From: Proteocatella sphenisci DSM 23131
Lineage (GTDB): Bacteria; Bacillota; Clostridia; Peptostreptococcales; Filifactoraceae
DNA: 64,000 nt
Direction of reading: 5' to 3'
Assembly: GCF_000423525.1 (NCBI RefSeq)
Contig: NZ_AUID01000017.1
Span: 1 to 64,000 of the forward strand
Of this stretch, positions 5,575-61,260 are shown piece by piece. Under the pieces are notes generated by a model. It was not told the DNA's origin. It did not search any database and saw nothing but the letters and a program-made list of their open reading frames with translations. Position 1 is the stretch's first letter, and every line of letters starts with the position of its first letter. The translations under genes were made by a program, and so were the position numbers.

Positions 5575-6207
5575 TTATTTTGCTGGTATAAACTCTCGAA
5601 CATTAATGTTGCTCGATTTAAGTTTATCAACAAGTTTTTCTAAATTCTTACCCTCTAACCTTATTGATATTTCTTGTATACCCATTACTCCAGTATCCAT
5701 TTGCACAATATTAGTAATATTTGCTCCTTGCTTGTGTATGATTTCAGCAATTTTTGCTATTACACCAGAAAAATCACTTGATAATATGACGATTTTTGCA
5801 TCTTGTAAACCAAATATTTTTAATATAACTTCAAACAAAGCTTTTTGTGTCAGTATCCCCACAAATTTATCATTACTATCAACTACTGGAAGAAATCTTA
5901 CTTTTGATTTAAAAAATATCTCTGCTGCTTCCTCAACATGTATATTGTCCTTAACAGTTTCCTGAGGTGAAGTAATGAAATCAGAAACAGGTTTTTGAAA
6001 AAAACTGTTAACACCAGGCGAGCCTGATTTAAAAAATTGATCATAAATAAATTGTTTCGAAAGAAATCCAAAAAAGTTGTTATCCTTAAATACTGGTAGG
6101 GATAAAAATCCATTGTTTTCAATTATTTCGATAGCTTTTTCTGCGGTGTCTTCTGTAGACAATTTTATAAGAATGTTTGCCGGCGTTATTAAAGATTTTA
6201 TTAGCAT
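5575..6207 (-). CDS. CBS-pair and ACT domain protein (AcuB-like)
   Basis: A 210-residue cytosolic protein. Two CBS motifs (about residues 1-60 and 70-130, with paired phrases FLSLPVFKDN and FLPVVDSN) normally form an adenine-nucleotide-binding module. A C-terminal ACT domain (about residues 138-207, AKIAEIIHKQGANITNI) usually senses an amino acid or small ligand. This order is that of AcuB-type proteins. No acuA or acuC is nearby; it leads a two-gene unit with the secreted stalk-domain protein. The ATG follows a CAGGAGG site. The ligands are unknown. Confidence 0.8.
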   Translation of the reverse strand: MLIKSLITPANILIKLSTEDTAEKAIEIIENNGFLSLPVFKDNNFFGFLSKQFIYDQFFKSGSPGVNSFFQKPVSDFITSPQETVKDNIHVEEAAEIFFKSKVRFLPVVDSNDKFVGILTQKALFEVILKIFGLQDAKIVILSSDFSGVIAKIAEIIHKQGANITNIVQMDTGVMGIQEISIRLEGKNLEKLVDKLKSSNINVREFIPAK

Positions 6208-6298
6208 AGTTTCCTCCTGGTAAATTCATTAATTGTTATCTAACATTAATACCCGTAAATCGATTAGTTTACACAACCAATTTGTTCAAATAATATTT

Positions 6299-6340
6299 AA
6301 AAGGCTCATTAATATAAAATAACTTAATGAGCCTTTTCTT
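6299..6340 (-). terminator. Rho-independent terminator
   Basis: A perfect 13-bp stem (6299-6311 with 6325-6337) containing GGCTCATTA. It lies about 30 bp beyond the stop of the 85-residue gene and ends the regulator unit. Confidence 0.85.
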
Positions 6341-6366
6341 ATTTCATATGATTTTTGCTTTAAAAT

Positions 6367-6624
6367 TTAATCTTTACATGTTTCAGTTAATTCATAGAGT
6401 AAGGTTTCTGTCGCAGCAATGCTAGCTTGATTCTTAACTAAAAACAAGTCTCCACGACCAATCCAATCCAGACCTTGGAAGTCAGCCAGGTTCTTAATCG
6501 TGCTTTTTAATGTTAAAATATCTTCTTCTGTGTTTTGCGTTAACCCTGACTTCATAAATCTATATGTTTTTTCAAATTGTTCATTATAAATTCCATCTGT
6601 ATCAAAAAAATCCAATTTAATCAC
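6367..6624 (-). CDS. Small protein of unknown function, coupled to the B12-binding regulator
   Basis: An 85-residue acidic, soluble protein with no motif I recognise. It has no signal peptide or membrane segment. Most of it is predicted helical (NTEEDILTLKSTIKNLADF; ASIAATETLLYELTE), and the middle DWIGRGDLFLVKNQ may form a turn or strand. It starts with GTG inside the last codons of the regulator gene, an 8-bp overlap that implies translational coupling and matched amounts. The pair ends at a shared terminator. It could be a partner or modulator of the regulator, but that is inference from position alone. Confidence 0.65.
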   Translation of the reverse strand: MIKLDFFDTDGIYNEQFEKTYRFMKSGLTQNTEEDILTLKSTIKNLADFQGLDWIGRGDLFLVKNQASIAATETLLYELTETCKD

Positions 6625-7480
6625 CTCTATTCCATTTTTTCAGTTCTTCTATTTTTTTTATTATGTGCACCTTATCCATTTCACTAAAATTCACATCATC
6701 TATACCTTGTCCTCCCACTAATATATCTATATTTGAAAATGAATCAATTTCTCGTATAAGCTTAATTATATTTACAAGAGAATCTTGATGACTCTTGAGT
6801 GTTACCGACAAAGCCAGGATTTTTGGTTTTTCTTTTTTTATAATTGCAATTAATTCGTTTGCTGGCAAATTATTACCCATATATATTGACCGATACCCAA
6901 TTATATCTAAATATGAAGCAACCATTTTTATGCCTAGCGTGTGTTGTTCAGAAGAAATCGACATGCTTATAGCGCACTGGTCCTTATTTTCACCTTTGAT
7001 TTCTTGAACTGCCAGCCAATCCACTATACGACTAATCATTTCAGTAGATGCATGCTCATCTGCAACAGATATTTTACCATTTTCCCAAAGCTCACCTATT
7101 TTATACATAGCTGGTGTTATAATATCTGTAAATATATGCAAAATATTATTTTTTTCTTTATAATAGTTTTGGACGGCTTTGACCAATTTATATTCCTCTT
7201 TTAAAAGCAAATGATTAGTAATCGAGTCAATTAATTCCTCTTTACTAAAACTCGTACTGTCACTTTTTTTTATGCATTTTTTTTTATAACCTAATAATTC
7301 ATCCACTGAAATATTTAAAGACTCTGCTATCTTAATCAAAACTTCCACAGTAGGCATTCTATTTCCACTTTCGTAGTTTGCAATTGTTCCTTGTGTAAGG
7401 CCAACTCTATTCGCCAGAGCTAATTGATTTATACAATTTATTTTTCTATATTTTTTAAGATTACTTCCAAATTTAACCAT
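6617..7480 (-). CDS. XRE-type transcription regulator with cobalamin-binding domains
   Basis: A 287-residue fusion. Residues 3-60 form an XRE/HTH_3 DNA-binding domain (LANRVGLTQGTIANYESG). Residues about 85-160 form the helical B12-binding cap domain, and residues about 168-275 the Rossmann B12-binding domain. W132, E142 and H143 reproduce the W-x9-EH motif of adenosylcobalamin sensors such as CarH. E178-Q-H180-T-L-G183 is the ExHxxG motif whose His replaces dimethylbenzimidazole as lower ligand. CarH-type sensors normally carry a MerR-type DNA-binding domain, so an XRE domain is different. Cobalamin binding is well supported; the signal (corrinoid level, redox or light) is not. I took the ATG at 7480 because GGGTTGGTG precedes it; a GTG lies five codons upstream. 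It has its own promoter and dyad. Confidence 0.85.
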   Translation of the reverse strand: MVKFGSNLKKYRKINCINQLALANRVGLTQGTIANYESGNRMPTVEVLIKIAESLNISVDELLGYKKKCIKKSDSTSFSKEELIDSITNHLLLKEEYKLVKAVQNYYKEKNNILHIFTDIITPAMYKIGELWENGKISVADEHASTEMISRIVDWLAVQEIKGENKDQCAISMSISSEQHTLGIKMVASYLDIIGYRSIYMGNNLPANELIAIIKKEKPKILALSVTLKSHQDSLVNIIKLIREIDSFSNIDILVGGQGIDDVNFSEMDKVHIIKKIEELKKWNRGD

Positions 7481-7511
7481 AGACACCAACCCCACTCATA
7501 TATATCTTTCT

Positions 7512-7529
7512 ATAATCATTAGTGATTAT
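7512..7529. promoter_or_regulatory. 18-bp dyad, candidate autoregulatory operator
   Basis: ATAATCA and TGATTAT are perfect inverted arms around TTAG. The dyad lies about 10 bp downstream of the -10 box and upstream of the regulator's start, so it covers the first transcribed bases. This is where a dimeric XRE protein would block its own transcription. That the regulator binds here is inference. Confidence 0.5.
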
Positions 7530-7538
7530 TTTATTTAT

Positions 7539-7567
7539 ATTATATTGCTATTTGTTATATTTGTCAA
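7539..7567 (-). promoter_or_regulatory. Consensus sigma-A promoter of the XRE-B12 regulator
   Basis: TTGACA (7562-7567) and TATAAT (7539-7544) are both perfect, separated by 17 bp. Such a strong promoter in front of a regulator suggests that repression is needed. Confidence 0.8.
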
Positions 7568-7595
7568 TATGTTGTATATTAATATTTCAATTAGA

Positions 7596-7647
7596 AATAA
7601 AAACTATCTTTTCAGGTTATAATAATCCCCAAAAGATAGTTTTTATT
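7596..7647 (-). terminator. Rho-independent terminator of the acid-sugar operon
   Basis: A 17-bp perfect stem (7596-7612 with 7631-7647) with A/T-rich outer ends. It sits just after the GntP permease stop and isolates the operon from the XRE-B12 regulator downstream. Confidence 0.88.
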
Positions 7648-7650
7648 GTT

Positions 7651-9021
7651 TTAGAATATAGCACTTAATATTAATAATTCTACCAGTCCTACAGCCCATA
7701 TAATAGTCGTAGTAACTGACCATACCTGCATCTGCTCTTTTGCATCCTTTATCCCAAGCATACGGTTTACAACCCAAAAATAGCTATCATTAAAGTAGGA
7801 ATATACTAATGATCCTGTACAAGCTGCCAGTACTGCAAATATCGGATTTACATTAAGATTTGCAATTATTGGTGCGGTTATTGAAGCTGCCGTAATCATT
7901 GCAACCGTACCACTGCCTTGAATAAGTCTTACTATTGACGCGATTACAAATGGTAAAAGAATAGGCGGAATTGATGTTTGCGCTATTATATTTGCTATAT
8001 AATCTCCCGCTCCACTGTCACGAAGTACCATACCCAGTGCTCCTCCACCACCTGTAACAAGGATTATTATTCCTGCCGATTTGATACCTCTTTCCATATG
8101 TTCTATGGTCTCTTCTCTGGTATACTTTCCGGCTAATGCGTAGATTGCTACTATAAGTCCAATACCTACTGCAATAACTGGCGAACCTAAGAATCCTATT
8201 GCCGGCATAAAAGATCCTTCTAATTTCATGGCCGCTGTTATGGTGTTTATTAGTATAAGTATTATTGGAACCGCAATTGGTGCAAATGCTCTAAATACTG
8301 AAGGCAGATTGTCATCTCCTTCACTGTCAATTAAGTCATACACTGGTTCTTGATATTGTGGCCTTTCCCATCCTTCTCCATCTTCTGATGGAATCTGGTA
8401 TATCTTTTTACCAATGTATTTTGCATAAATTATTGCTGCAGTTGTCATAGGTATTGCCATGACAATTCCCCATAAAATTAAAGACCCAACATTCACTCCA
8501 AACAATCCAGCAACCCCAACTGGACCAGGTGTAGGCGGAACCAGTGAGTGTGTGATTACAAGACCTGCTGCAAGGGATATTCCAAGTGTAACCGTTGATT
8601 TCTTGGTTTTCTTGGAAATAGCTTTTGTAAGAGGTGCCAGAATAACAAATCCAGAATCACAAAAAATCGGAATAGATACTAAGAATCCAGTAATGGCAAG
8701 GGCTATTTCTTCCCTTCCTTTTCCAAGTTTTTTGATGAATGTCTGTGCCATTCTTTCAGCCGCTCCTGATGCTTCAAATATCTCACCCATCATAACTCCA
8801 AATCCGATAATTATACCTATGCTGCTAAGAGTACCACCGAATCCTTTAGATATTGCATCCAGCACTGCATTTGGAGGCATTCCTCCAATTATTCCCGTTG
8901 TTGCCGCCGCAATGATAAGCGCCAGAAATGTGTGAATCTTTGTTTTCAAAATAAGGATGATTAGTAGCGAAATCCCAACCACGAGACCTGCAATCATCTG
9001 ATTACCTGCAACCCCTACCAT
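7651..9021 (-). CDS. GntP family sugar-acid permease
   Basis: A 456-residue proton-coupled transporter of the gluconate permease family with about 12 hydrophobic segments. Recognisable stretches are SIPIFCDSGFVIL, THSLVPPTPGPVGVAG, the central GGGGALGMVLRDSGAG, and YSYFNDSYFWVV near the end. Relatives import gluconate, glycerate and other hydroxy acids. Here it is the last gene of a DeoR-DUF1537 kinase-PdxA2 operon, so a four-carbon sugar acid such as D-threonate is the likely substrate (inference). AAGGGAG precedes the ATG. Confidence 0.9.
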   Translation of the reverse strand: MVGVAGNQMIAGLVVGISLLIILILKTKIHTFLALIIAAATTGIIGGMPPNAVLDAISKGFGGTLSSIGIIIGFGVMMGEIFEASGAAERMAQTFIKKLGKGREEIALAITGFLVSIPIFCDSGFVILAPLTKAISKKTKKSTVTLGISLAAGLVITHSLVPPTPGPVGVAGLFGVNVGSLILWGIVMAIPMTTAAIIYAKYIGKKIYQIPSEDGEGWERPQYQEPVYDLIDSEGDDNLPSVFRAFAPIAVPIILILINTITAAMKLEGSFMPAIGFLGSPVIAVGIGLIVAIYALAGKYTREETIEHMERGIKSAGIIILVTGGGGALGMVLRDSGAGDYIANIIAQTSIPPILLPFVIASIVRLIQGSGTVAMITAASITAPIIANLNVNPIFAVLAACTGSLVYSYFNDSYFWVVNRMLGIKDAKEQMQVWSVTTTIIWAVGLVELLILSAIF

Positions 9022-9041
9022 AGTAAATGTCTCCCTTCTAA

Positions 9042-10040
9042 CTATTTATTAAAATTCTTCGCATATAAAGCTGCCAGTTTTATGGCTTCAACCATACTCA
9101 CATCAGACACAACGCCAGTTCCTGCAATATCAAATGCAGTTCCATGGTCTACTGATGTTCTTAAGAATGGCATATTATTCGTAATTGAAATAGTTCTTTC
9201 AAAGTCTACCATCTTTGTAGCAATATGCCCTTGATCATGGTATAAGGACAATACTGCATCGTATTTACCTTTTAATCCAAAATGAAATACAGAATCTGCT
9301 GGAACTGGTCCTACAACATCTATGCCTTGTTCTCTGGCCCTTTTTATAGCCGGTACTATTTCATTCACTTCTTCATATCCAAATAAACCATTTTCTCCAC
9401 TGTGAGGATTCAGTCCTGCAACCGCCAACCGAGGGCTGTTCACACCTAATACCCTAAGTGCCTCTTTGCATCTAAGAATAAATTCGTATACCGATTCTTC
9501 TTTAACAAGTTCACAGGCTTGTCTTAACGATACATGTCTTGTAAGAAAGAATACTCTTAAGTCATAAACCTGGAACATAGTAAGAGGATTATCCGTATTT
9601 GTTAAATCTTCAAGTATTTCTGTATGACCAATATATGGTACTCCAGCGGATTTTAATGATTCTTTATTGATTGGAGTTGTGGCTATAGCATCAACTTTCT
9701 TTTCAAGAGCCAAATCAATTATAGTTTTTATATATTCAAAAGCTGCCTTGCCGCCTTCCGCCTGTACCTTACCCATTTGGAATGTACCGATATCTATATT
9801 ATTTAAGTCTATCAGGTCTATTGTCCCCTTAGTATATAGACCATCTTTGGGATCCTCTATTAGATTTATTGCAAGATTGATATTACAAAACCTCATAGCC
9901 TGCTCTATTATTCCCTTGTCTCCAACAACTACCGGTTTACATATTTCATATATTTCATCATAACTTAAAGATTTTACTACTATTTCTGGGCCTACTCCTG
10001 CAGGGTCTCCAAGTGGTATTCCTATTATTGGTCTCTTCAT
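9042..10040 (-). CDS. pdxA2: PdxA2-type 4-phospho-threonate dehydrogenase
   Basis: A 332-residue PdxA-family, metal-dependent NAD+ oxidoreductase with [14 protein letters not shown] at the N-terminus, YHDQGH as metal ligand region, and [12 protein letters not shown] at the C-terminus. True PdxA makes pyridoxal phosphate. Paralogues paired with DUF1537 kinases instead oxidise and decarboxylate D-threonate 4-phosphate to dihydroxyacetone phosphate. The adjacent kinase, 26 bp upstream, and the lack of other vitamin B6 genes favour the catabolic role. GGAGAG precedes the ATG. Erythronate or another C4 acid remains possible. Confidence 0.83.
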
Positions 10041-10066
10041 CTGTAATCTCTCCTTATTTTAAATTT

Positions 10067-11395
10067 TTATATTCTTGTCTCTTTAATGTGATATTCATTG
10101 GATAGTTTTGTCAACAGGTAATCTACACATTTTATTATTGCTTTATCATCACCAATCAATCCACCCTTGGTAATTATAGGCATATTATCATAAACTCCTT
10201 TTATTATCCTTCCATAAACAGCAAGCGGTAAAACTTCATCTTTTACTTCAATTCCTGCTGATCCAAGAGCCTTGCATACAGCCACCGTTACATCCCCACC
10301 AGATGTGAAAAGTCCACCAATTAAAGAATCTGTTTTTTTAAGGATTTCTATGGTTATATCTGCTAATCCATCAGAAATCCTTTGGGATACTTCATCTTCA
10401 GATATCTCAAGTTCATTTGCTATATCCTTAAGATTTAAGACTTCATCTTCTTTACTTGTCGTTATTACCCCTATTACATCATAATCCGATACATCTTCCA
10501 AAATCTTTTCTACTACCTTGTCTATTTCATCTTTGCGAGTTTCATCATAGATAAGATTAGAAGCAGATACCCTTACAAAAAGAGGTGAATATCTTAATTT
10601 CACTTCATCTAACTGTGTTCTTGTCAGATTTGATACACTTCCTACCGTTAGCATGACTTTTTTTCCAGGTTCGCCGGCCGGAATTTCTAGCAATTCTTCT
10701 GCAAGTGCAGCTGTGAATGGTCCTGGATCTACAGATATAACCTTAATTCCAGTGCACTTAACTGCTTTTGCTATTTTTAGTATATCATCATCAGTTGTAG
10801 CATCTATTACTATAACCCTGGACCCTTTTTCTTTCTCATCAATTATTGCATTTTTAATTGATTCTATTCCCTTTAACACCTTGTCCAGCTCAATAAATCC
10901 CAACTTATCTTGTGTCTGTGATCCTATCAACTTCACTACAGACGATGTGAAAATCGGAGTCTTTGGATCTTTTGCAACGTCTGTCTTCTCAAGAGGAGTT
11001 TGGTTTACCATCAAATATCCACCAATGCATATCCTCCCCGATGTCGGAAAGGAGGGGACCATAATTGCTAATGTATCATCAGTTAAATTATCAAGTATAG
11101 CTGAAATTTCCGATCCGATATTTCCTCTCAATGTACTGTCAATCCTCTTTGCAAAGAGTTTTATATCTTCATCTTTAAAAAAATTAACGACATTTCCAAC
11201 TCTGTTATAAGCTTCATTACTGTCTATACCTCTGCTGTCAGTACTTATTGATATAATATCAAGGTCCTTATGATCTTCTCCATTATACTTATCCAGGTTT
11301 AAAAATGTAGTCGCCTTAAATCCTCGCCTCGCAAGAAGTACGGATGTAGCATTTGCACCTGTTAGGTCGTCTGCTATAATTACTATCTTTTCCAT
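10067..11395 (-). CDS. dtnK: Four-carbon acid sugar kinase (DUF1537; D-threonate kinase type)
   Basis: A 442-residue two-domain ATP-dependent kinase. The N-terminal domain starts with IIADDLTGANATSVLLARRG, the acid-sugar-binding signature. The C-terminal nucleotide-binding domain carries GGLFTSGGDVTVAVCKALG and ends with a TKGGLIGD motif. It would phosphorylate a C4 sugar acid at O-4 to feed the PdxA2 enzyme encoded next. The start has a clear TAGGAGG site. The family is well established for D-threonate, L-threonate and D-erythronate; the exact substrate here is inferred from the neighbour only. Confidence 0.87.
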   Translation of the reverse strand: MEKIVIIADDLTGANATSVLLARRGFKATTFLNLDKYNGEDHKDLDIISISTDSRGIDSNEAYNRVGNVVNFFKDEDIKLFAKRIDSTLRGNIGSEISAILDNLTDDTLAIMVPSFPTSGRICIGGYLMVNQTPLEKTDVAKDPKTPIFTSSVVKLIGSQTQDKLGFIELDKVLKGIESIKNAIIDEKEKGSRVIVIDATTDDDILKIAKAVKCTGIKVISVDPGPFTAALAEELLEIPAGEPGKKVMLTVGSVSNLTRTQLDEVKLRYSPLFVRVSASNLIYDETRKDEIDKVVEKILEDVSDYDVIGVITTSKEDEVLNLKDIANELEISEDEVSQRISDGLADITIEILKKTDSLIGGLFTSGGDVTVAVCKALGSAGIEVKDEVLPLAVYGRIIKGVYDNMPIITKGGLIGDDKAIIKCVDYLLTKLSNEYHIKETRI

Positions 11396-11411
11396 ACAAA
11401 ACCTCCTATAT

Positions 11412-12173
11412 TTAAACTAACTTGATATTTACACTTTTACTGTTTAATATTTCATATGTTTTTTTATTTAAACCAATATCAGTTATTATCAAATCAAATT
11501 CATCCACATTACAAATCTTGGCAAAACTTTCCTTTCCAAATTTACTGTTATCTACAACTAATATTGATTTCTTTGCCGATTTTATTGCTTGTTTTTTAAC
11601 ATCTGATTTTTCAAAAGTTGGCGTACTTACCCCATTTTCCAAAGTAATAGAACTAGTTCCAATAAAACTTATATCTACATTTATCCCTTTTAAAAATTCA
11701 ATAGTGTGTGAACCTAAACACGTACCTGTAGAGTTTTGAACTAATCCGCCAGTACACAAAATCTTAAAGTTTGTTGAAAAAGAAAGGAATCCCGCAATTT
11801 TGATGTCAGTTGTTACTATTGTCAGATTTTGTTTAGATTTAAGCAACTTTGCAATTTCCATATTGGTGGTGCCTGAATCCAGGAAAATTATTTGTCCGTT
11901 TTGAACAAGAGAAGCCGCGTATTTTGCGATTTTTTTCTTTTCATCCCTATTACTTATGATTTTATTTTTATATGGAATTTCTGAAGTGAGTCCTGATTTT
12001 AATATAGCTCCACCAAAGGTTCTAGATGCTATATTGTTATCTTCCAAATATTGGAGGTCTCTCCTTACTGTCATTGGAGTGACATTTAGTTTTTTAGCAA
12101 GTTCTTCAACTTTAGCACTTCCAAATTCTTCAAGATATTCTACAATCATATTTCGCCTATCTATCAGTAACAT
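11412..12173 (-). CDS. DeoR family transcription regulator of the acid-sugar operon
   Basis: A 253-residue repressor. Residues 1-57 hold the DeoR winged helix-turn-helix (LAKKLNVTPMTVRRDLQYLE). Residues about 75-230 form the sugar-phosphate-sensing domain with FLDSGTTNMEIAKLL and the C-terminal DNSKFGKESFAKI. Such regulators usually respond to a phosphorylated pathway intermediate. It is the first gene of its own operon, 17 bp before the kinase, so it is likely autoregulated. GTT repeats phased at 10 bp overlap its promoter. Confidence 0.9.
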   Translation of the reverse strand: MLLIDRRNMIVEYLEEFGSAKVEELAKKLNVTPMTVRRDLQYLEDNNIASRTFGGAILKSGLTSEIPYKNKIISNRDEKKKIAKYAASLVQNGQIIFLDSGTTNMEIAKLLKSKQNLTIVTTDIKIAGFLSFSTNFKILCTGGLVQNSTGTCLGSHTIEFLKGINVDISFIGTSSITLENGVSTPTFEKSDVKKQAIKSAKKSILVVDNSKFGKESFAKICNVDEFDLIITDIGLNKKTYEILNSKSVNIKLV

Positions 12174-38552: not shown

Positions 38553-38788
38553 TAAAAAGCCCCTATGAGAATAATCTCATAAGGGCGAAATTTCGCGGTA
38601 CCACCTTATTTGTTCAAATGAACATCTCCAGATTATAACGTCATCAACGCATTGCTTTCACAACGAAACTCCAAGGTAGCTTCATAATATTACTGTAGAG
38701 ATTCTCATCACCCATCTCTTTTCTGTAATCAGCGAATAAAATTACTGGTCCTCTTCATAGTAGCATAATATATTATTATTTACTTATA
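38553..38788 (-). promoter_or_regulatory. T-box riboswitch leader of alaS
   Basis: A T-box element AAGGTGGTACCGCG (38594-38607) lies before a strong terminator hairpin (about 38555-38586) with a T tract. Its UGGU bulge pairs with a tRNA 3' end having discriminator A. Upstream, GATTAC/GTAAT and AGAGAT/ATCTCT arms form Stem I. A GCT (Ala) triplet at 38678-38680 on the 3' side is the likely specifier. Uncharged tRNA-Ala should favour antitermination. The leader fills the 308-bp gap between alaS and iscU. Confidence 0.92.
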
Positions 38789-61016: not shown

Positions 61017-61260
61017 CAAAAAACTCGCCCCTTTGTAATAAAGAGACGAGACTTTCCCGTGTTACCACTCTTCTTGGTATTTAATACCCACTCTATATTC
61101 TATAACGTGAATGACTCGTACTTTTCATTTATTTAAAGTATCCTCAAAGACTCTATTCAAAAATTCAATTTTACCAAGCTTCCACCATCCTTGGCTCTCT
61201 ATGAATTAATTCAATTCTCTACTTGTTTCTTTTCACAGGAAAATATTTTATTTTACATAC
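61017..61260 (-). promoter_or_regulatory. T-box riboswitch leader of argS
   Basis: The T-box AGAGTGGTAACACGGG (61056-61071) is followed by the terminator CTCGTCTCTTT/AAAGGGGCGAG with six T (61017-61050). Stem I has CCAAG/CTTGG around GATGG. An AGA (Arg) triplet at 61152-61154 on its 3' side is the likely specifier. The UGGU bulge fits a tRNA with discriminator A. Uncharged tRNA-Arg should allow argS expression. The leader fills the 345-bp gap upstream of argS. Confidence 0.9.

Follow-up and report, generated by a model that had tools for sequence, protein, structure and literature searches.

The stretch of DNA analysed here (hereafter, the window) comprises 64,000 nucleotides from Proteocatella sphenisci DSM 23131. 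Its minus strand carries a unit of two genes, a regulator followed by a small partner, with the following features:

7480..6617, minus strand: gene of a 287-aa regulator with XRE (HTH_3/HTH_19), B12-binding_2 and B12-binding domains (open reading frame, Pfam, alignment)
6615..6367, minus strand: partner gene, 82 aa from a likely TTG start (start choice read from the sequence)
7567-7562, minus strand: -35 hexamer TTGACA (consensus scan)
7544-7539, minus strand: -10 hexamer TATAAT, after a 17-nt spacer (consensus scan)
7512-7529, no strand assigned: dyad with perfect 7-bp arms just 3' of the -10 box, a candidate operator by position only
7583..7599, no strand assigned: weak family-operator match of 8.2 bits upstream of the -35 box (operator motif scan)
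about 6300-6342, minus strand: hairpin with a short U-run 3' of the partner gene, a possible terminator (folding)

An earlier note on this DNA read the regulator as an XRE helix-turn-helix fused to cap and Rossmann B12-binding domains. Pfam bore this out with all domains above their gathering scores: HTH_19 (9e-14) and HTH_3 (1.7e-13) at the head, B12-binding_2 (4e-14) over residues 85-156 and B12-binding (6.8e-11) over residues 174-259. No MerR-type DNA-binding domain was present among the 11 Pfam matches of the regulator. Both motifs pointed out in the note, W132-x9-E142-H143 and E178-x-H180-x-x-G183, are intact at exactly these residues. The regulator starts with ATG, and a GTG at 7495 would lengthen it by 5 aa.

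The strong consensus promoter claimed for the unit was also confirmed (TTGACA-17-TATAAT, 12/12), the other 14 matches within 6200-7700 scoring 9/12. The dyad at 7512-7529 fared less well: it is present with its perfect arms, but as the proposed operator it lacks the sequence shared by the family (see below), and when the 160-bp region was shuffled 1000 times by mononucleotide, a dyad as good turned up in 28.6% of the shuffles. In a scan of the P. sphenisci genome, the dyad pattern ATAATCANNNNTGATTAT was unique at zero mismatch, and by eye no neighbour of the three one-mismatch sites was recognised as light-related. Two mismatches gave 71 matches vs. 13 for the reversed pattern, a doubtful control in AT-rich DNA. 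The hairpin behind the partner gene folds at -20.2 kcal/mol (z -4.5) and was not called a terminator by the consensus scan.

As for the partner, the note described 85 residues overlapping the regulator gene, which corresponds to a start at GTG 6624 (6624..6367). The small open reading frame is there; the overlap is doubtful. GTG 6624 has no spaced Shine-Dalgarno sequence, while TTG 6615 is preceded at proper spacing by AGAGGTGAT and gives the protein an N-terminus of the same length as in its homologues. TTG 6615 thus seems the likelier start, and with it the partner would begin 1 nt past the regulator TAA.

Several other features of the window deserve a brief description. Upstream of the unit, positions 7651-12173 encode a GntP permease, a PdxA-like dehydrogenase, a D-threonate-kinase-like protein (below its NCBIfam cut-off) and a DeoR regulator, a cluster resembling four-carbon acid catabolism. 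On the other side, a minus-strand gene at 5575-6207 encodes a CBS-CBS-ACT protein that stays below the NCBIfam cut-offs and is only distantly related to CbpA and CbpB, which bind c-di-AMP. Rfam detected two T-box leaders (RF00230) on the minus strand, at 38578-38767 and 61039-61245, and no cobalamin riboswitch in the window.

The XRE-B12 family and its sensing module

Relatives of the regulator were sought in 148 related genomes, in 297 genomes of the order and in named species genomes. Across the order, matches spanning the HTH and B12 domains were found in 29 of the 297 genomes (E up to 7e-63, one match running only to profile position 240); because the search scored about seven candidates in each genome, some carriers may be missed. 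Of the 87 loci that passed in the named species genomes, we retained 80; judged by match length, 67 of these (L125-L191) are XRE-B12 loci, and the other 13 match the HTH or little more. The loci compared gave 106 profile matches, 96 of them full length and 71 distinct, that is, 70 relatives and the window regulator. Therefore, the architecture is not peculiar to this protein, as had been supposed, and represents a large family. The window regulator is a member, having the XRE, cap and Rossmann domains over its full length. In the tree it sits on a long branch (1.61) and groups with Petrocella-type proteins in a set of six rows supported at 99/84, its own fork having 93/44, and it alone among the 71 has Gly at position 31, in the recognition helix.

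Hosts of XRE-B12 loci include Clostridium, Natronincola, Alkaliphilus, Fusibacter, Proteiniclasticum, Acidaminobacter and Spirochaetes; we take most of the host genera to be anaerobes. We considered and rejected two mobile sources of the regulator. A viral-contig scan gave six loci whose matches cover the HTH, one of them reaching residue 126, while of the 30 matching plasmid records one covers 80% and is annotated as a B12-binding-domain protein.

The sensing motifs are maintained throughout the family, with W132, E142 and H143 each found in 70/71 members and H180 in 71/71; G202 (71/71) and P206 (64/71) are conserved as well. The SignatureFinder study (PMC11796333) describes helix-turn-helix outputs in combination with light-responsive cobalamin domains and gives the light signature of these domains as GxxW, EH, GxxH and GxxxP. 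The strict signature is complete in 31/71 family members and, once the glycine of GxxH is waived with His180 kept, in 63/71. The window regulator belongs to the latter kind: GxxW (as GELW), EH and GxxxP (as GNNLP) are present, and GxxH is replaced by SEQH, without that glycine. Thermus thermophilus CarH (TtCarH) has His132 directly behind the Trp; at this position the family has Glu in 49/71 proteins, Glu133 of the window regulator being the equivalent, and His in none.

An AlphaFold2 model of the regulator, built from a 21-sequence alignment, reached a mean pLDDT of 87.8. Foldseek placed full-length CarH in its top rows (E 3e-11). With residues ~73 to 287, VIA-align ranked a photocobilin first (8j2w, Z 24.5, rmsd 2.1, 204 aligned), followed by the CtMerR light-sensor domain (Z 22.9), methionine synthase 1bmt (21.0) and CarH (about 20). 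Judging by the model, these matches show the B12 module and leave light sensors and enzymes unseparated. The NCBIfam CarH model gave 53.5 bits against a cut-off of 400, and MtaC, MtbC, MtgC and pyl_corrinoid gave 22-52 bits against cut-offs of 215-450. We rejected a role as a corrinoid-methyltransferase component, since these cut-offs were missed and no such gene was seen by eye among the recurrent neighbours.

The regulator shares traits with several known B12 systems and differs from each of them in others. With CarH and class I LitR proteins it shares the cap and Rossmann module, the equivalents of W131, E141-H142 and H177, an N-terminal DNA-binding domain and, near some members, light-repair or carotenoid genes; it differs in its XRE head, that of CarH being MerR, and XRE-B12 regulators have no equivalent of His132, the upper ligand in the CarH light state. 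The cobalamin-binding domain of CtMerR from Chloracidobacterium thermophilum (8JBS/8JBT) also lacks this histidine, having Arg there (PMC11796333, as far as available), although CtMerR is a MerR-type regulator of 15-16% identity. The photocobilins SasPcob (8J2W) and AbDPcob (8J2Y, Z 22.2), which top the structural matches of the B12 module, carry a biliverdin-binding domain where the regulator has its DNA-binding head. MtaC, MtbC, MtgC and the B12 domain of MetH have the same two-domain fold with a lower His ligand, but the regulator adds a DNA-binding head and the W/EH cap residues. Since the B12 module is common to corrinoid proteins and methionine synthase, one might suppose that the regulator has no light role and reports the supply of AdoCbl or MeCbl, controlling export and envelope genes; the retention of the cap W and EH in nearly all relatives speaks against this, and its neighbour genes are weighed below.

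Another scenario is an alarm that light as such would not trigger and that needs oxygen at the same time, a combination dangerous for an anaerobe, and most host genera presumably are anaerobes. By the available part of one report, CarH combines light and oxygen through His132, and TtCarH requires oxygen for full conversion to the light state (PMC10442372), which would suit such an alarm. However, the accessible text on CtMerR describes adenosyl loss under anaerobic conditions also, though without monomerisation (PMC11796333). Besides, no oxygen-linked gene stood out by eye among the recurrent neighbours, and we consider this scenario rather improbable.

A shared operator and a probable link to light

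A palindromic motif search over 64 non-redundant regulator upstreams returned TAtCACAtaaTGTGaTA with an LLR of 275.8; four mononucleotide shuffles searched at the same width (30 seeds vs. 60) gave an LLR of 33-37. The operator reaches at least 9 bits in 47/64 upstreams and stays below 9 bits in 17/64, the window's included, in some cases because it precedes an upstream gene of the unit. Sites of at least 13 bits numbered 100 in 233 kb between ORFs (of at least 100 aa) vs. 17 in 1.34 Mb inside them, each site being counted once; these counts take in the upstreams used for motif training, and both rates are lowered because duplicate loci stay in the kb lengths. Sites before fasciclin genes and before partner genes lie outside the training set, and the family operator was indeed found before fasciclin genes. 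A separate 18-bp motif from 14 mainly fasciclin-linked regulator upstreams was discarded, since it fell mostly at one position about 210 bp upstream and was read as coding sequence of the preceding gene. In L043 (9018-10986), and by eye in L121 and L169, genes for a fasciclin-domain protein and for a sortase diverge from a stretch with two or three strong operators.

Distances between sites of at least 8 bits (35 distances) cluster at 20, 30, 40 and 50 bp. A period of 10 gave R 0.70 (Rayleigh p about 4e-8, related sequences being counted apart), while periods of 10.5, 9 and 8 gave R 0.60, 0.60 and 0.23. In locus L042, four half-sites, forming two palindromes, fit into 37 bp. Such phasing would fit a dimer of dimers on one face of the DNA, as a CarH-like tetramer would need. 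Near the window promoter, the family operator was not found, the best site being the 8.2-bit match at 7583-7599. Its relaxed form showed no enrichment in the P. sphenisci genome either (31 matches vs. 35 for the reversed control), and the sole exact match lies inside an ORF.

A class II photolyase gene lies no more than four genes from the regulator in 7 of the 62 named loci with a called regulator (L131, L155, L161, L162, L165, L176 and L180), three of which come from one genus, so that the seven are not independent cases. L162 and L165 were called by BLAST and the other five by profile; the latter exceed the PF00875 cut-off, and their best NCBIfam model, TIGR00591 phr2, gave 467-526 bits against a cut-off of 550. 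In six of the seven loci, the operator precedes the photolyase-containing unit: in L155, the photolyase gene overlaps the regulator stop downstream of two operator sites, and in L161, L162, L165, L176 and L180 it is part of a divergent unit, separated from the regulator gene by a region with an operator of 13.7-20.8 bits. L131 is the exception, its photolyase gene being convergent and not placed behind the operator. On the tree, the photolyase label requires five changes, the label set taking in L160, a short contig without photolyase that is near-identical to L162.

Two further loci, each 1 of the 62, have operators in the adjoining intergenic stretch. In Marinisporobacter (L031/L125), the regulator is followed by UvdE (TIGR00629, above cut-off) and a 2-thiouracil-desulfurase/DUF1722 protein; in Alkaliphilus serpentinus (L047/L139), a gene divergent from the regulator encodes a desaturase of the crtI family (TIGR02734, above cut-off). 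According to the accessible part of one study, LitR proteins of Pseudomonas control the light-inducible phrB (PMC9758184), and thus this type of regulon is already familiar.

Over the whole order, photolyase (PF00875) is present in 36/297 genomes, namely 18/29 XRE-B12 carriers vs. 18/268 others (p 5e-12); counted by genus, which corrects for kinship to genus level only, the figures are 11/18 vs. 7/117 (p 1.5e-7). This co-occurrence may reflect a shared lit habitat only, since none of 17 stretches around regulator-unlinked photolyases, that of P. sphenisci included, has an operator of at least 13 bits. Three of them (L245, L248, L251) contain 9.7-10.2-bit sites, none upstream of the photolyase. 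The P. sphenisci genome itself encodes a class II photolyase on C4 (TIGR00591, 510 bits vs. a cut-off of 550) and a PduO-type adenosyltransferase on C2, and therefore has both the cofactor supply and the light-repair enzyme; a PF02572-type adenosyltransferase was not found in it.

Commoner neighbours than photolyase in the 62 loci are ABC exporter ATPases (21), RND pumps (10), chemoreceptor-like genes (9, by eye) and fasciclin proteins (9). This prevalence of exporters and envelope genes would agree with a plain sensor of corrinoid supply, as would the stand-alone B12-binding protein adjoining the regulator in six loci. However, no gene for B12 synthesis, B12 uptake or corrinoid methyltransferase was noticed by eye among the neighbour families present in at least three loci, and the photolyase, UvdE and CrtI neighbours together with photolyase co-occurrence point to light. 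Overall, a corrinoid sensor with no part in light sensing appears unlikely to us. The earlier suggestion of a light or corrinoid switch remains probable, and the light reading is strengthened because the signature is near-invariant and because of these neighbours and this co-occurrence.

The stand-alone B12-binding proteins are themselves worth a comment. In the six loci (L161 7126-7794, L162, L165, L172, L175, L182), a protein of ~220-240 aa is encoded divergently from the regulator and precedes an ABC exporter (LolCE/MacB-like in L161), and three of these units run into photolyase. In G016, G027, G038, G047, G055 and G063, all from one family, a B12-domain match in a 220-260-aa frame lies ~4-5 kb from photolyase on the same contig.

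The small partner and a proposed light switch

The partner represents a real family, being detected by profile in 9/297 genomes of the order. In eight aligned members, G51, W54, G56 and R57 of a G-x-x-W-x-G-R motif are invariant, and in the ninth (G021) Leu replaces the Trp. Pfam, NCBIfam (asked with the window's member only), PHROG and PDB gave no convincing match. Structure prediction gave a bundle of three helices (pLDDT 84.9), for which the Foldseek (best E 2.3) and VIA-align (best Z 9.4) results were left unused, as they fall in the range of unrelated helical bundles. Among 398 genomes of the phylum, the profile matched P. sphenisci and, weakly, a 42-residue stretch broken by stops; the viral-contig scan and phage records contained no relatives.

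The partner goes along with the regulator: XRE-B12 regulators occur in 8/9 partner genomes vs. 21/288 others (p 2.6e-8; by genus 6/7, p 1.6e-5; p 2.4e-7 without the window's genome, the total being left at 297). Adjacency, which the note had asked about, is not the rule. The two genes adjoin in 2 of the 8 genomes with both (P. sphenisci and G080), and in the remaining six they lie on different contigs. Within 400 bp upstream of the partner, the family operator was found in G080 (15.6 and 10.6 bits), G037 (16.8 and 8.9) and G125 (13.7), and no site of at least 7 bits in G198, G139, G043, G072 and G021. Three of eight partner upstreams thus have 13-bit sites, against about 0.2 expected (0.07 per kb in the fetched loci). 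In G080 and G037, the partner is divergent from UvdE and shares the operator region with it. G125 has no such site before its own regulator. Photolyase is present in 6/9 partner genomes, and G037 and G080, which lack it, are those with UvdE beside the partner.

The note left open whether the partner modifies sensing or is an output. Because it lies away from the regulator in six of eight genomes and has the operator upstream in three, the partner is most likely a member of the regulon rather than a sensor subunit; modulation is possible. It might serve in the response to light or UV stress. One might argue instead that the window regulator drifted to a private, autoregulatory role with the partner as its anti-repressor or co-sensor, since the two genes form a unit with its own promoter and a hairpin behind and the regulator combines a long branch, the unique Gly31 and no clear family operator. 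The dispersed partner genes and the operators before three of them oppose this idea, to which we attach a low probability.

Overall, because most relatives share one DNA target and some adjoin repair genes for sunlight damage, the window regulator is probably a light switch, and we think it reasonably likely that it acts as an XRE-type repressor which responds to light by means of B12. In the dark, it would bind its predicted cofactor, adenosylcobalamin, through His180 under the W132/E142-H143 cap and would assemble as a dimer of dimers on operators, phased pairs in most relatives; the window's own operator can be predicted by position only. Light would break the Co-C bond, the assembly would loosen, and target genes, the partner co-expressed as an output among them, would then be expressed. 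The bis-His light form of CarH is impossible for this regulator, because His132 is absent, and its light state is expected to resemble more closely that of CtMerR or of the photocobilins. In short, the family couples the sensing module of CarH to an XRE head and comes with a shared operator and ties to photoprotection genes. Our search of the open-access literature, with subscription papers and preprints outside its scope, found no description of an XRE-B12 photoreceptor; the word XRE is absent from the available main text of the SignatureFinder paper (PMC11796333), and the xre of PMC8123684 is, in the part available, an operon gene of unknown function.

More tentatively, it is tempting to speculate that XRE-B12 photoreceptors let anaerobes sense light without His132 by means of phased operator pairs, commanding a photoprotection regulon of class II photolyase, UvdE, carotenoid desaturase, exporters and a three-helix light or UV stress protein clearly found in one order only. 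Being uniformly without His132 and mostly from anaerobes, these presumed photoreceptors offer a natural test of B12 signalling without His132 or oxygen. With the shared operator as a guide, much of the regulon can be predicted from sequence, and the operator also provides a ready reporter; the small partner gains a testable context. The family could lead to light switches working in anaerobes, and it raises the question of why such organisms watch for light.

Finally, the P. sphenisci genome encodes on C21 (L051 7900-8973) a second protein with B12-binding_2 and B12-binding domains, of 357 aa and with an unassigned N-terminal region. A GGDEF protein (L051 8988-10040) follows directly, and the pair might represent a B12-based light input to c-di-GMP.
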